Shown here piece after piece: positions 32,071-37,895 of a stretch of DNA of 39,726 nt. Under the pieces are notes generated by a model. The model saw only the letters and a list, made by a program, of their open reading frames with translations. It was not told where the DNA came from and ran no database searches. Both the position numbers and the translations under genes were made by a program. Position 1 is the stretch's first letter, and each line of letters begins with the position of its first letter. The stretch comes from an uncultured Spirochaetaceae bacterium (GTDB taxonomy: Bacteria; Spirochaetota; Spirochaetia; Sphaerochaetales; Sphaerochaetaceae). The DNA lies in contig OMYY01000027.1 of assembly GCA_900315435.1 (NCBI GenBank), positions 1-39,726 on the forward strand, read 5' to 3'.

Positions 32071-32094
32071 CAATCACGTTTGCGTCCTGACCAC

Positions 32095-33432
32095 TCAGGC
32101 CAAGGAACCCATCGGGTCCCACGGTTTGAGCTCGATTGGCTTTTGGGCGAGCATTTCCCGCTCTTGGGCGGTCAGGTATTTCTTGTTGACCACCACTTGG
32201 TAGGTGAACTCGCTGAACCAGTCGTCGGTCATGACAAAGAAGCCCTTGTCCCCGACATCCTCGCCCCAGCTGTTCTCCACCTTCCAGCGGTTCGGCTTGC
32301 CGTTCTTGTCCAGGTTTACGCCGGTAAGCACCATCGCATGGGTCATCCGGCTCTCGCCGTAGTCCAGCCGTTGCGCCTTGTTCAGCGGGAAGTTGGTGTC
32401 GAACAGTCCTGCGACATCCAGCGCATGCAGGTCCATCAGCCCGCTGGTCCGCTCGCTGAACTGGCCGACGTCGCTGCCGAACCAGACCACTTTTCCATCC
32501 TTGATCTGGCTTGCGGCCATCTCCTTCAGCCGCTCGACCGGCAGGTTCAGGTAGAGGACCGGCCTACCGCCCTTCACATTGCCCAGATACTGGACGGTGT
32601 AGGTACGACCAAACGGCTTGTCGGCGGTCGGCGCATTGATCAGGGAGACATAGTCGTCGAACTGCATGCCGACATACTTGTCGAAGAAGGCCTTCGGGGT
32701 AATCGACTCCTCACGGATGAACTCCCCTTTCTTGTTGGTCACTTCCCAGGTGAAGGTCACCGGAGGTTTGCCAAGCGCGATGCAGAGCATGCGGTAGATG
32801 GTGGAGAGCATGTCCTCTTTCATCGTTCTCAACGCCGACACAGACATGGCGTTCTTCAAGGCCGCCGTGCGCAGGATGCAGGCGAACTCGCGAAGCTTCA
32901 GGGTCAGGTACTTGTCCAGCTCCCTCGTCTCCGAGGAAGAGGCGCTTTCCGGCATGGCATCCTTGGGCACCACACCGTATTTCTCGACCAGATTGACGAA
33001 CATGTCCCACTGCCCGCCATCCCCCATCGGGTCGGCAAGCAGGTAGCTGACCAGCCTTCCGTCGACCGGCTCGTCCTTGGTCTCGATGATGGATTCAAGG
33101 AACCAGTTGGATTTCTCCAGCTTGTCCCAGAAGAGCGGATAGTTCTGGCTCAGCTCGAGGTTCTCGAGCGAGCACTTCTCCATCGCCTCCAGGCGCATCA
33201 CGTTCAACGCGGAGAACATCCAGCATCGGCCGGACTTCTTCTGGTTGGTGATCTTGCCGGCATAGATGGTATTGGAGAACTGATGGCGGCTCTCGCGCAC
33301 GGCCTCATAGTCGTGCGCGCTACCGTTGATGCCGTTCCGCACCGTCGCGTTCATCGCCACGCGGTGCTCATGTTTCTCGTCGAAAGCGCAGTCGAAAGCC
33401 TTGAGGGCTTCCAAGGTGATGGACTCGTTCAT
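32095..33432 (-). CDS. pepC: C1-family aminopeptidase C (bleomycin hydrolase type)
   Basis: The 445-residue product is a papain-fold cytosolic aminopeptidase. It has NQKKSGRCWMFSALNVMR with the nucleophile Cys70, MTHAMVLTGV with His365 and RWKVENSWG with Asn387. Length and motif spacing fit PepC/bleomycin hydrolase, a hexameric enzyme that trims peptides from the N-terminus. It lies three bases after the alaS stop on the same strand, so the two are co-transcribed. Confidence 0.9.
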   Translation of the reverse strand: MNESITLEALKAFDCAFDEKHEHRVAMNATVRNGINGSAHDYEAVRESRHQFSNTIYAGKITNQKKSGRCWMFSALNVMRLEAMEKCSLENLELSQNYPLFWDKLEKSNWFLESIIETKDEPVDGRLVSYLLADPMGDGGQWDMFVNLVEKYGVVPKDAMPESASSSETRELDKYLTLKLREFACILRTAALKNAMSVSALRTMKEDMLSTIYRMLCIALGKPPVTFTWEVTNKKGEFIREESITPKAFFDKYVGMQFDDYVSLINAPTADKPFGRTYTVQYLGNVKGGRPVLYLNLPVERLKEMAASQIKDGKVVWFGSDVGQFSERTSGLMDLHALDVAGLFDTNFPLNKAQRLDYGESRMTHAMVLTGVNLDKNGKPNRWKVENSWGEDVGDKGFFVMTDDWFSEFTYQVVVNKKYLTAQEREMLAQKPIELKPWDPMGSLA

Positions 33433-33435
33433 GGC

Positions 33436-35238
33436 TTACTTCTCCAAGACCGCCTTGATGCGGCGCACTCCATGGGAAGAGGACTGTTCCTTGACGATGT
33501 GGAAATGGCCCATATCGCCGGTGTGCGTCACGTGCGGGCCTCCACATACCTCCTTGCTGAAGTCTCCAATCGAGTAGACCTTCACCTGCTCGCCGTACTT
33601 CGAGGAGAACTGGGCGAAGGCGCCCTCGGCCTTGGCCTCATCGAGGCTTTCGACTTTGTAGGTGACCGGCAGGTCTTTCCTGATCTGCTCGTTGACCAGG
33701 TCCTCGACCTTCTGGATTTCCTCCTTGGTCAGCGGCTCGTCGTGGTTGAAATCGAAGCGAAGACGCTCGGCTGTGATGTTGGAGCCAAGTTGTTTGACGT
33801 AACCGCCCAGGACGTCGCAAAGGGCGGCGTGCAGCAGGTGGGTCGCGGTATGCAGGGCAGTAGTCTGCTCGCTGTGGTCGGCAAGACCACCCTTGAACTG
33901 CTGCTCGCTCCCTCCACGGCTGATTTCCTGGTGTTTCTCGAAGGCGGCCTTGAAACCCTCTTCGTCGACGGTCATGCCGTGCTCCTTGGCAAGCTCTCTG
34001 GTCAGCTCGATCGGGTAGCCGTAGGTATCATACAGCTTGAAGGCAGTGCGTCCGCCGACGACCTTGCGAGGATCCTTGAGCAAGTTGGGAAGCATCTTCT
34101 CGAACTCTTTCTCGCCCTTGACCAACGTCTCCTCGAACTTCACCTCCTCGTTCTTCAGCTCGGTGAAGATGAAGTCCTTATGGGCAAGGAGCTCCGGATA
34201 GGGCTGTCCGTACAGGTCGAGCACGATCGGGGCCAGTTCGGTGAGGAAGGGCTTGTCGATGCCGAGCTTGTGTCCGTGGCGCACAGCGCGACGGATCAGA
34301 CGGCGCAGGATATACCCCTGGCCGACGTTGCTCGGGGCCATTCCCTTCTCGTCGCCCAAGATGAAGACGCTGGTACGGACATGGTCGGCGATGATGCGCA
34401 TGGAGACATCAGTCTCCTCGTTTTCGCCGTACTGCTTCCCGCACAGGTCGCTGATACCCTTGAGGATCGGCTGGAACACCTCGGTCTCATAGACGCTTTT
34501 CTTTCCCTGCAGGATGCTGATGGTGCGCTCGATGCCCATGCCGGTATCGATGCACTTGCGCTTCAGCGGAACGAACTTGCCGTCCTCGGTCTTGTTGTAC
34601 TGCATGAAGACGTCATTCCAGATTTCCAGATACTTGCCGCAGTGGCAACCGGGCTTGCAGTCGGGACCGCAGGCCGGGCGTCCGGTATCGATGAACATCT
34701 CGCTGTCAGGACCGCAGGGACCGGTCTCGCCGGCCGGACCCCACCAGTTGTCCTCGCGGGGCAGGAAGAAGATGCGCTCGCGAGGAATCCCGTGGGACTC
34801 CCAGTAGGACGCGGCCTCCTCATCGGCAGGGATGCCCTCTTTCTCGTCGCCGGCGAAGACCGTGACGGAAAGCCTGTCGGGATCGATGCCAAGCACGGTG
34901 GTCAGGAACTCGTAGCTGTAGGCGATCGCCTCTTTCTTGAAATAGGCCCCCAAGGACCAGTTGCCAAGCATCTCGAAAAAGGTCAGGTGGCTCGAATCCC
35001 CGACGGAATCAATGTCTCCGGTGCGGACGCATTTCTGGTAGTCGGTGAGCTTGTTGCCCTGCGGGTGGTCCTGCTGTCCCATCAGATAGGGAACGAGCGG
35101 ATGCATGCCGGCGGTCGTGAACAAAACGGTCGGGTCGTTTTCCGGAATCAGGGAAGCTCCACTGATCTGTTTGTGTCCTTTGCTGACGTAGAAGTCAATG
35201 TACTTCTGACGCAGTTCGTTAGCAGTCAATCTATTCAT
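33436..35238 (-). CDS. alaS: alanyl-tRNA synthetase, short form
   Basis: The 600-residue product has the AlaRS catalytic core (TTAGMHPLVPYLMGQ, GDSSHLTFFEMLGNWSLG), the tRNA-recognition region and the editing domain with HTATHLLHAAL and CGGPHVTHTGDMG zinc-site residues. It stops right after the editing domain, whereas most bacterial AlaRS run to about 870 residues with a C-Ala domain. Spirochaetes have this short form (family knowledge), so I do not regard it as truncated; the next gene starts three bases later with no sign of a lost C-terminus. Confidence 0.96.
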   Translation of the reverse strand: MNRLTANELRQKYIDFYVSKGHKQISGASLIPENDPTVLFTTAGMHPLVPYLMGQQDHPQGNKLTDYQKCVRTGDIDSVGDSSHLTFFEMLGNWSLGAYFKKEAIAYSYEFLTTVLGIDPDRLSVTVFAGDEKEGIPADEEAASYWESHGIPRERIFFLPREDNWWGPAGETGPCGPDSEMFIDTGRPACGPDCKPGCHCGKYLEIWNDVFMQYNKTEDGKFVPLKRKCIDTGMGIERTISILQGKKSVYETEVFQPILKGISDLCGKQYGENEETDVSMRIIADHVRTSVFILGDEKGMAPSNVGQGYILRRLIRRAVRHGHKLGIDKPFLTELAPIVLDLYGQPYPELLAHKDFIFTELKNEEVKFEETLVKGEKEFEKMLPNLLKDPRKVVGGRTAFKLYDTYGYPIELTRELAKEHGMTVDEEGFKAAFEKHQEISRGGSEQQFKGGLADHSEQTTALHTATHLLHAALCDVLGGYVKQLGSNITAERLRFDFNHDEPLTKEEIQKVEDLVNEQIRKDLPVTYKVESLDEAKAEGAFAQFSSKYGEQVKVYSIGDFSKEVCGGPHVTHTGDMGHFHIVKEQSSSHGVRRIKAVLEK

Positions 35239-35290
35239 AATCGATACGGCGGCTTCTGTCGCCCTCCTTCAAAATACAAGTCGTTTATTC

Positions 35291-35304
35291 GGTACAGTTG
35301 TACC
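35291..35304. promoter_or_regulatory. dyad GGTACA-N2-TGTACC upstream of alaS
   Basis: Two six-base arms, GGTACA and TGTACC, with a two-base centre lie about 53 bases upstream of the alaS start, between dprA and alaS. It could be an operator or part of a promoter; no clear -10 and -35 pair is assigned. Confidence 0.3.
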
Positions 35305-35329
35305 CTATATCGGCCTTTGAGGAAAGGGG

Positions 35330-36331
35330 TTAGAAAAGCGAGAGTTGCCCGGAGGGAACAGGGCTTTCCTTCCTTTTCCGTTTTGGGGGTGCGGGCGGGA
35401 CTATCCTGGATACAGGGGGCGCGGCTTTCCGCCGGACATGCTCCTGCCGTGCCTGGGGCGCCAGCGCCTTGGCAAGGGAGACCGGGGTACGTGCGACCAG
35501 CACATGGTCCCGTTCGCTGAGTTTTCGCGGCCAAAGGATCGCGCTGTTGTCCAGCGTGGATTGATAGAAGCAGACACGGTGCCCCTGCTCAAGGGAATAT
35601 TCGGCCTGGCTTATCGCCCCTCCTCCGTCCTTCTCCTCGACAATCACGCTGGCTATCGAAAGCGAGCTCATCAATCGGTTACGGACCAGGAAATACCACT
35701 TTTGGGTCGGTAGCGAGGGAGCGAAACGGCTGACCACCAGCCCCTTGCCGGCAATCTCGTCCTGCAGGCGCTGGTGTTCGGCAGGATAGTACTGGTCGAT
35801 TGGAGTTCCTATCACACATACGGTGGGAAAGCCCATCCTCAGCGCCGTCATATGGGCCACCCCGTCGATGCCGAGGGCAAGCCCGCTGGCGATCACCAGG
35901 CCCTTGGCCCCCAACGCCTCGACCGTTTCCACGCAGAGCTTCTTGCCAGACAAATCGGGCTTACGTGTCCCGATGACACTCACCATCGGACGGGACAACA
36001 GCGAGACGTCGCCATGCAGATAGAGGAACCGGGGACAATAGGCAGTCCCGAAGGTCTGACTCGGCCACTCGGGATCTTCCCAGGAAATGACGCGTACCGC
36101 GGAATCCAGTTTCGCGAAGCTGGCATACTGGTTGTCGATCAGCGGTTCCATCTCCTTCAAAGACAAGGACAATCGCGAGGCGCACTCGACAAATTCCTTC
36201 TCCGGCTTCAGGTGCATGCCCGCCACCTCGTTGAAGACCGGCATCACCGCCGTTTCGGAACCATCCTTCGCCTCGGTCAGAACCGTATAGAACAACGCTC
36301 TGCGTACGTGATCATCCATGTCCCCCATCAT
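35330..36331 (-). CDS. dprA: DprA-like DNA-processing protein with a C-terminal clamp-binding peptide
   Basis: The product (333 residues from the ATG at 36331; ATGs at 36328 and 36319 are alternatives and none has a clear ribosome binding site) carries the DprA Rossmann domain: VSVIGTRKPDLSGKK, IASGLALGIDGVAHMTAL, TVCVIGTPIDQYYPAEH and FLVRNRLMSSLSIASVIVEEK, which line the single-stranded DNA site. DprA loads RecA on incoming DNA in transformation. The tail after residue 290 is rich in Pro, Lys and Arg and ends exactly in QLSLF, the consensus peptide for binding the DNA polymerase sliding clamp. The N-terminal region is not a standard DprA SAM domain by eye. Confidence 0.8.
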   Translation of the reverse strand: MMGDMDDHVRRALFYTVLTEAKDGSETAVMPVFNEVAGMHLKPEKEFVECASRLSLSLKEMEPLIDNQYASFAKLDSAVRVISWEDPEWPSQTFGTAYCPRFLYLHGDVSLLSRPMVSVIGTRKPDLSGKKLCVETVEALGAKGLVIASGLALGIDGVAHMTALRMGFPTVCVIGTPIDQYYPAEHQRLQDEIAGKGLVVSRFAPSLPTQKWYFLVRNRLMSSLSIASVIVEEKDGGGAISQAEYSLEQGHRVCFYQSTLDNSAILWPRKLSERDHVLVARTPVSLAKALAPQARQEHVRRKAAPPVSRIVPPAPPKRKRKESPVPSGQLSLF

Positions 36332-36431
36332 GCCATAAAACCGCGGGGATTGACAGTACAGGATCAACCGGAAAAATACAACGCAAAGCAGATACAAGCC
36401 TATCCCGACAGGGGAAAAAATCTTTTGGGGG

Positions 36432-36473: not shown

Positions 36474-36546
36474 GCCGCTTTAGCTCAGTTGGTAGAGCAA
36501 AGGACTGAAAATCCTTGTGTCCCTGGTTCGATTCCTGGAGGCGGCA
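36474..36546 (+). tRNA. tRNA-Phe (anticodon GAA)
   Basis: The 73-base sequence folds as a cloverleaf. The acceptor arms GCCGCTT and AGGCGGC pair, the D arm has AGCTCAGTTGG, the anticodon loop CTGAAAA carries GAA at 36507-36509, and the T arm has GGTTCGATTCC. CCA is not encoded. The integrase gene begins 122 bases downstream, so the 3' half of this tRNA is the likely attachment site of the element to its right. Confidence 0.97.
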
Positions 36547-36610
36547 CTAAAATAATTCCTTACTCCACAAAGGCTTAACTATCCTCTTTCGTATCGGAAA
36601 ACGAAGCCCA

Positions 36611-36648
36611 GAGCAAGGATTGTCAGAAAAAATGTCAGAAACTTGCTC
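36611..36648. repeat. dyad with two internal direct repeats upstream of the integrase
   Basis: GAGCAAG (36611-36617) and CTTGCTC (36642-36648) are inverted repeats that flank two copies of TGTCAGAAA (36621-36629 and 36633-36641) spaced 12 bases apart. The block ends 20 bases before the integrase start and about 65 bases from the tRNA end. It could hold integrase arm-type or excisionase sites, or an operator for int. Confidence 0.5.
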
Positions 36649-36668
36649 GGCTCTTTACGGAGAGTCTG

Positions 36669-37895
36669 ATGAGACAACCCTTCTATGTTTTCCCACGTAA
36701 GATGTCCAAGGGAATTAGGTTTTACATCCAATTTTCGAATCCCAATCGTTCCGGGCGGTCCGTTACCGTCAGTGCAACCACGTTGAAGGAACAGCTAGGC
36801 TACAGCACATTCCATCCGGTCAAAAGCAAGTACGAAGCTTTCAGCATCGGCAAAGAGGCTTTCGAGAAAGGAATCTTCTTCAACCAACAGGCTGAAGTGC
36901 TTTTCGCTGATTACGTGATGAACTTTTGGGATTTTGATAATTCCGATTACATCAAGAGACGCAACAAGGAAAAGCCCAACAGCATAACCAAGGCATATGC
37001 CAACCAAGAACGCAACAGATTCTTGACGTACGCCATGCCTCTCCTCCCTCCCAATCTAAAACTCGTAAACATTCGCTCCAGCGATTGCGAGAAGTTGAGA
37101 GACAATCTGTTCAAGCAGAACAAGTCCAACTCCACCATCAACAAGGTACTTCAATCCCTGAGAAGCCCTCTCAAGGAGGCATATCGGCTTAGTCTGATTT
37201 CCGACAACATAGCCGAAAAAATAGAAAACGCTTCCATTTCTTCCGAAGAGAAGGGCATGCCAACTCCCGGAGAGGTGTCTCGGCTTCTTTCTTATCTGGT
37301 TCGCAAGAACAAGCCTACCACCTATGGCAGGATTAACTATCTCATGGTTGCCTTAGCCGTCACTACGGGCATGAGGCAAGGCGAGATACAAGCCCTCAAG
37401 CCCGAAGATTTCACATTCGTCAATGATACCGCAATCATCCGTATCTCACACTCCTACTCCCCTACAGATGGATACAAATGCACCAAAGGGAAGAAGACCC
37501 GAGCCTCCTCAACCGATGCGAGATTGGCCAAGGAAATATTGGAATTCGCTCAGCACAATCCCCATGACAACGGCTTTTGTTTCTGGAGTCCTTCCGTATC
37601 TGACAAGCCGGTTGGCAAGAGATACATCATTGAACACTTTCAGGAAGCTTTGGAGGCTATAGGAATCAGCCAAGAAGAGCAGAAATCAAGGAATCTTACC
37701 TTCCATAGCCTGAGAGGATTCTTTGCTACGCTTATGCTCCCTCAGGTCGGAGCAGAGACAACCAAAAAGGTTGTTGGCCATCAGAACATTGCCACTACCG
37801 AAAGATTCTACATCCACGAGAATGAGACAGAACTCGTGGCTTTGAACGAAACCCGCAAGAACCTAATCTCACTCCCATCGACTACAAACCAATAA
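36669..37895 (+). CDS. tyrosine-recombinase integrase
   Basis: The 408-residue product has the full catalytic set of the phage-integrase family: Arg236 in TTGMRQGEI, His346 and Arg349 in FHSLRGFF, His371 in VVGHQNIATT and the nucleophile Tyr381 in ERFYIHEN. Residues 80-190 form the core-binding domain, and the N-terminal part probably binds arm sites. It catalyses integration at the tRNA-Phe gene and, with the excisionase, removal. CGGAGAG lies four bases before the ATG. Confidence 0.93.
   Translation: MRQPFYVFPRKMSKGIRFYIQFSNPNRSGRSVTVSATTLKEQLGYSTFHPVKSKYEAFSIGKEAFEKGIFFNQQAEVLFADYVMNFWDFDNSDYIKRRNKEKPNSITKAYANQERNRFLTYAMPLLPPNLKLVNIRSSDCEKLRDNLFKQNKSNSTINKVLQSLRSPLKEAYRLSLISDNIAEKIENASISSEEKGMPTPGEVSRLLSYLVRKNKPTTYGRINYLMVALAVTTGMRQGEIQALKPEDFTFVNDTAIIRISHSYSPTDGYKCTKGKKTRASSTDARLAKEILEFAQHNPHDNGFCFWSPSVSDKPVGKRYIIEHFQEALEAIGISQEEQKSRNLTFHSLRGFFATLMLPQVGAETTKKVVGHQNIATTERFYIHENETELVALNETRKNLISLPSTTNQ

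Follow-up and report, generated by a model that had tools for sequence, protein, structure and literature searches.

A DprA-family paralogue of Sphaerochaetaceae with a conserved C-terminal peptide of the β-clamp-binding type

The canonical pentapeptide of β-clamp (DnaN) ligands is QL[S/D]LF, or more generally QxxLF, and the C-terminus of Bacillus subtilis PolC, which reads QLSLF, binds its clamp with a KD of 3.8 µM (PMC12309361). Revised hexameric forms of the motif have also been described and the interchange of pentamers and hexamers is published (PMC13254535). Among recombination factors, RecF, a mediator of RecA action and gap repair, has been shown to bind DnaN (PMC10287930). The mediator of RecA assembly at stalled Escherichia coli forks without RecO and RecBCD is listed as unidentified, with DprA as a candidate (PMC12448304). 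In pneumococcal DprA, the C-terminal segment of the Rossmann fold builds both the dimer and the contact with RecA (PMC4066776). A literature search that had subscription papers and preprints outside its scope returned no report of an interaction between DprA and the clamp, in agreement with a first-pass annotation that knew of no DprA shown to bind it, and no report on DprA in Sphaerochaeta.

Here, we describe a DprA-family gene, which we name dprA2, in the DNA of an uncultured Spirochaetaceae bacterium, placed by GTDB in the family Sphaerochaetaceae; the whole stretch of 39,726 nucleotides that was analysed is referred to as the window. The features of the locus are as follows.

33436-35238, minus strand: alaS, encoding an alanyl-tRNA synthetase of 600 residues; the gene that directly follows dprA2, in the same orientation.
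35330-36397, minus strand: dprA2, a DprA-family (PF02481) gene with no match to a winged-helix domain.
35333-35347, minus strand: C-terminal pentapeptide QLSLF of the clamp-binding type, followed by the stop codon at 35330-35332; the tail peptide that bears it is ESPVPSGQLSLF.
35348-35422, minus strand: disordered linker rich in Pro, Lys and Arg (residues 304-328 of the 333-residue form; AlphaFold2 pLDDT about 50-66).
35489-36097, minus strand: DprA-type Rossmann core (residues 79-281), with the GTR and SGLALGID loops intact in the species of the window.
36113-36331, minus strand: N-terminal helical domain (residues 1-73) of four helices in the AlphaFold2 model.

The dprA2 reading frame encodes 355 residues from a TTG codon at 36397 or 333 residues from the first ATG at 36331, and its product ends in ...KRKRKESPVPSGQLSLF directly before the stop codon. 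The last five residues are QLSLF, as the first-pass annotation had read them, encoded by CAA CTC TCG CTT TTC from 35347 to 35333; the interval that it had assigned to them (35330-35344) is displaced by 3 nt, taking in the stop codon and dropping the Gln codon. The product matches PF02481 (DNA recombination-mediator protein A) with 175.2 bits (gathering score 29.6), which places it in the DprA family, and scores 155.3 bits against the DprA equivalog model TIGR00732 of NCBIfam, below the cut-off of 191.15. What the earlier reading of a 'DprA-like protein' missed is that dprA2, with its link to alaS, is a gene of its own; some relatives carry a winged-helix DprA in addition.

An AlphaFold2 model built with 30 aligned homologues has a mean pLDDT of 91 and a confident core, and consists of four helices (residues 7-73), the Rossmann domain (residues 79-281), a single helix (residues 283-303) and a tail of ∼30 residues that is disordered from about residue 304 and carries QLSLF at its end, which bears out the flexible Pro/Lys-rich tail proposed earlier. 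The loops that bind ssDNA and phosphate in DprA (GTR, SGLALGID and RNRL) are all present in the protein of the window. No winged helix is found in the model, which closes with the one helix and the disordered tail. A Foldseek search with this model returned pneumococcal DprA (PDB entry 3uqz) as the top match, followed by ShosA (8zva). We consider it likely, as part of the overall interpretation developed below, that the dprA2 product is a DprA-family paralogue in which a short helix and a disordered, motif-bearing tail have taken the place of the usual C-terminal winged helix.

The neighbouring alaS gene is kept next to dprA2 across Sphaerochaetaceae, and its product in the window contains the catalytic and SAD editing domains but not the usual C-terminal part (equivalog PRK01584). 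Upstream of dprA2 and divergent from it are a tRNA-Phe and, directly after it, a tyrosine-type (phage-type) integrase gene (window 36474-37895, plus strand), an arrangement with which integrated elements typically begin. An open frame of 1146 codons (window 32080-35520, plus strand), antisense to alaS and a C1 peptidase gene, is probably a by-product of codon usage. The genome of the window contains a second PF02481 gene (G000:C61:20934-21506; L002:1504-2130), located between a gene for a TauE-like permease and an xerC-like gene, with hslV beyond. Its product of ∼208 residues has neither the N-terminal helical domain nor a winged helix, and the gene is possibly a reduced canonical dprA.

A loose DNA pattern for Q-L-x-L-F-stop has ten matches in the 2.8 Mb genome compared with 11 for a reversed control, so that genome-wide the peptide by itself proves nothing and its conservation decides. 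Homologues were sought in 139 genomes of Sphaerochaetaceae, sampled as one per species, many of them assembled from metagenomes and the named relatives being Sphaerochaeta and Spirochaetales assemblies, and were found in 127. At 86 loci the next gene downstream is alaS in the same orientation, at a distance of mostly 28-112 nt, and all 86 of these syntenic copies end in a peptide that resembles the clamp motif: 45 in QLxLF (or QLxLGL, or a QF variant), ten in QPxLF and 31 in a reduced xxxLF. The prediction that relatives would keep the motif, by which the first-pass annotation proposed to stand or fall, is thus borne out, with the motif or its reduced form in every copy. Shuffled tails yield the three classes at rates of 0.17% (QL), 0.02% (QP) and 0.97% (xLF), or about 1.2% together, and among 406 control reading frames from the same loci only one has the motif. 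The 53 Q-type motifs are encoded by 42 different 15-mers; since the codons differ while the residues stay, the constraint acts on the protein and conservation is established at that level. Chance or low complexity as the origin of the motif is ruled out by the shuffles, the control frames and the codon variation, and its restriction to the species of the window by its presence in relatives.

The linker in front of the motif varies in length and has diverged in sequence among relatives. Between zero and five residues follow the motif in the syntenic copies, so that the signal does not lie in a free C-terminus, and pentameric QLDLF and hexameric QLDLGL interchange among close relatives. The Gln is missing from 31 of the 86 copies (for example, PDLF and TLDLF), a form that would be expected to bind the clamp weakly; DnaE retains the Gln of its own motif in lineages whose dprA2 tail has lost it. 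Two proteins of the tree described below (L056 and L060) have neither an adjacent alaS nor the motif.

The QLSLF of dprA2 fits the published consensus in both its strict and its general form (QL[S/D]LF and QxxLF), as the first-pass annotation had recognized, lies on a flexible segment and is conserved above background. Elsewhere in the same genome, clamp motifs are found in DnaE (internal QISLF), DinB (QQELF) and a second Y-family polymerase (QADLF). DnaN was found in all of the 30 genomes inspected, with the pocket signatures TDxRRL, PxYRRV and MPM kept apart from local variation; we took the pocket positions from general knowledge of E. coli β. The DnaE motif of 30 relatives reads QxSLF in 26 and QN(L/F)LF in four (L237-L240), and these four belong to the genera (g14, g18 and g21) whose DprA tails mostly read QPxLF, one exception being a genome (G084) in which the DprA tail ends in GLFDLF. 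In the same genera a DnaN pocket segment reads AMNG (L249, L251, L253, L255, L258, L260 and L261) compared with F(L/M)xG elsewhere, an F(L/M) to AM change that aligns with Tyr154-Leu155 of E. coli β. DnaE motif, DnaN pocket and DprA tail thus shift together in this sub-clade, an apparent co-evolution of the clamp with its ligands. A shared pocket would be expected to give such co-variation, which is seen in one clade and may stem from a single evolutionary event. Binding of the dprA2 tail to DnaN is, in our judgement, very likely.

We therefore favour, with good but not full confidence, the interpretation that dprA2 encodes a DprA-family paralogue tethered to DnaN by a true β-clamp motif. With the motif seated in the hydrophobic DnaN pocket, the DprA-type Rossmann body would be kept at replication forks, or at clamps that remain on the DNA in their wake, where the tethered protein would meet ssDNA at gaps. 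A role in the replication-linked handling of ssDNA at gaps or forks is somewhat favoured, and by analogy such a mechanism would parallel that of RecF.

Alternatively, binding of the tail to DnaN may serve regulation: the clamp-bound protein would fill the pocket or control access to it, in the manner of Hda in DnaA control or of a competitor of polymerases, and would not be a handler of ssDNA. In two lineages (genera g2 and g11) the GTR and SGLAxGID loops are gone but a C-terminal QLELF or PDLF persists, such that the clamp contact outlasts the DNA-binding signature, and the rewriting of the dimer and RecA segment points the same way. However, the lineage of the window retains its GTR, SGLALGID and RNRL loops and no regulator with a DprA fold is known; we regard a purely regulatory role as unlikely.

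The same features bear on RecA. The dprA2 product has 'DN..LWPR' in place of the segment responsible for dimerization and RecA contact, and the dimerization pattern G.N.L..GA is absent from all 86 syntenic copies; among 29 other DprAs, it was found in only 12. Within the RecA-contact triad of pneumococcal DprA, Glu235 aligns with a Glu, Asp243 with an Arg, and Glu265 lies beyond the aligned block. RecA loading is consequently uncertain, because the dimer segment is rewritten, the mappable contact residues are not reliably kept and the ssDNA loops are lost in some lineages. The first-pass annotation had presented the protein as a RecA loader, and this claim fared poorly in view of these changes and of the score below the equivalog cut-off. 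As a RecA loader at forks dprA2 is hypothetical, and the evidence does not require that the paralogue loads RecA. The genes for RecO and RecF are both present in the genome of the window, which rules out DprA as a substitute for lost RecO and gives no obvious reason to see dprA2 as the replacement of a lost RecFOR pathway.

The clamp contact could also serve natural transformation, protecting incoming ssDNA and coupling strand invasion to DNA synthesis rather than acting at chromosomal forks. DprA is classically a transformation protein and the genome of the window has a competence gene of the ComEC type, but the linkage of dprA2 is to a housekeeping gene, alaS, and not to competence genes, and several relatives also have a separate winged-helix DprA; a transformation role seems to us quite unlikely. 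In a tree of 102 proteins, the alaS-linked group and a sister group fused to a helix–turn–helix stand apart from the remaining DprAs. The proteins of the sister group (L059-L082, genera g2 and g11; for example, L061:646-1857) have 400-430 residues with an N-terminal HTH_17-like domain and are encoded away from alaS; one of them (L059) has an intact QLSLGL and the others have remnants or none. The motif is absent from the winged-helix DprAs of Sphaerochaetaceae (L098-L102), whose ∼40-60 residues past the core we read as the winged helix, and from those of other spirochaete families. A motif universal to DprAs is thereby ruled out. The only relative from outside the spirochaetes that was returned, from Rodentibacter, is without the motif.

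Motif-bearing tails recur in a second family (f3), which we take to be Treponemataceae, in which 45 of 101 distinct DprA tails without a winged helix (loci L311-L400 and L271-L300) contain QxxLF or QxxLxF, compared with 0.45% on shuffling; variants include QLPLF, QGELF, QPSLF, QQNMLF and QLALDF. Confinement of the motif to Sphaerochaetaceae, which a stricter pattern (Q[L..]x[L]F) had suggested, is ruled out by these matches to the published QxxLF pattern. On a quick tree the motif of this second family has changed state (gains or losses) about 16 times; this cross-family tree joins long branches, and was used for the lability of the motif within the family and not for the branching order between families. 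The tail motif is thus a constant feature of the alaS-linked gene and a labile one in the presumed Treponemataceae; judging by their length, both sets lack a winged helix. We tentatively suggest, at somewhat less than even confidence, that Spirochaetales DprAs have repeatedly moved from the transformation machinery to the clamp, the tail being stable in Sphaerochaetaceae and labile in the other family, and that in some lineages clamp binding is the main function surviving the loss of the ssDNA loops.

Three further explanations leave the clamp aside. Since short hydrophobic C-termini also have uses in other systems, the end peptide might be another kind of short linear motif, recognized for instance by a protease as a degron or by a different partner for docking; up to five residues can follow it, however, two known forms of the clamp motif (QLxLF and QLxLGL) interchange and the peptide co-varies with DnaE and DnaN, which makes this very improbable. 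The dprA2 product could act in an anti-phage module resembling ShosTA, as its antitoxin or its sensor, since it matches the PADLOC ShosA model (PDLC03961) at 1e-57 and the ShosA structures (8zva and 9vzo) are its relatives, but the ShosA fold is the DprA fold, so that such a match is expected for any DprA, no gene for a ShosT toxin adjoins dprA2, and its neighbours are alaS, which is kept family-wide, and, divergently, the tRNA-Phe and integrase genes; we find this scarcely credible. A DNA or RNA element in the leader of alaS, or shared ancestry or chance, could be proposed in place of a functional peptide, given that in most genomes only about 30-110 nt separate the conserved stretch from alaS downstream. 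We assign this a negligible probability, as the 42 nucleotide versions of 53 Q-type motifs keep the amino acids, the surrounding tails have fully diverged and neither shuffles nor control frames yield the motif.

Under the favoured interpretation of a clamp-tethered DprA paralogue, the dprA2 product probably works at the replication machinery, as far as its sequence indicates. A kept clamp-docking tail would give a DprA-family protein a concrete physical route to forks, mutation of the five-residue motif offers a handle for testing this route, and a further protein family would join the likely clamp ligands. What is new is the combination of a DprA fold with a docking motif; each part is known, and the combination was nowhere found described.

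Compared with known systems, dprA2 shares with DprA/Smf, as represented by Streptococcus pneumoniae DprA (3uqz), the Rossmann core with its GTR and SGLAxGID loops, the N-terminal helical domain and the lack of a winged helix, and the pneumococcal protein aligns with the dprA2 model along all of its 282 residues. It differs in the rewritten dimer/RecA segment, the score below the TIGR00732 cut-off, the clamp-motif tail and the linkage to alaS, and it stands apart in the tree from the winged-helix DprAs of Sphaerochaetaceae. ShosA, the DprA-like antitoxin of ShosTA (8zva and 9vzo), shares the DprA fold and the PADLOC match, whereas dprA2 has no toxin partner alongside and is kept next to alaS. 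PolC (C-terminal QLSLF), DnaE, DinB and RecB (QVEMEF; PMC13254535) carry the same consensus peptide as dprA2; none of the clamp-motif proteins described in the cited papers is a DprA. E. coli RecF belongs to an unrelated protein family and, unlike the dprA2 product, has no clear clamp-binding motif, but the two would share a logic in which the clamp brings a recombination factor to ssDNA gaps (PMC10287930).
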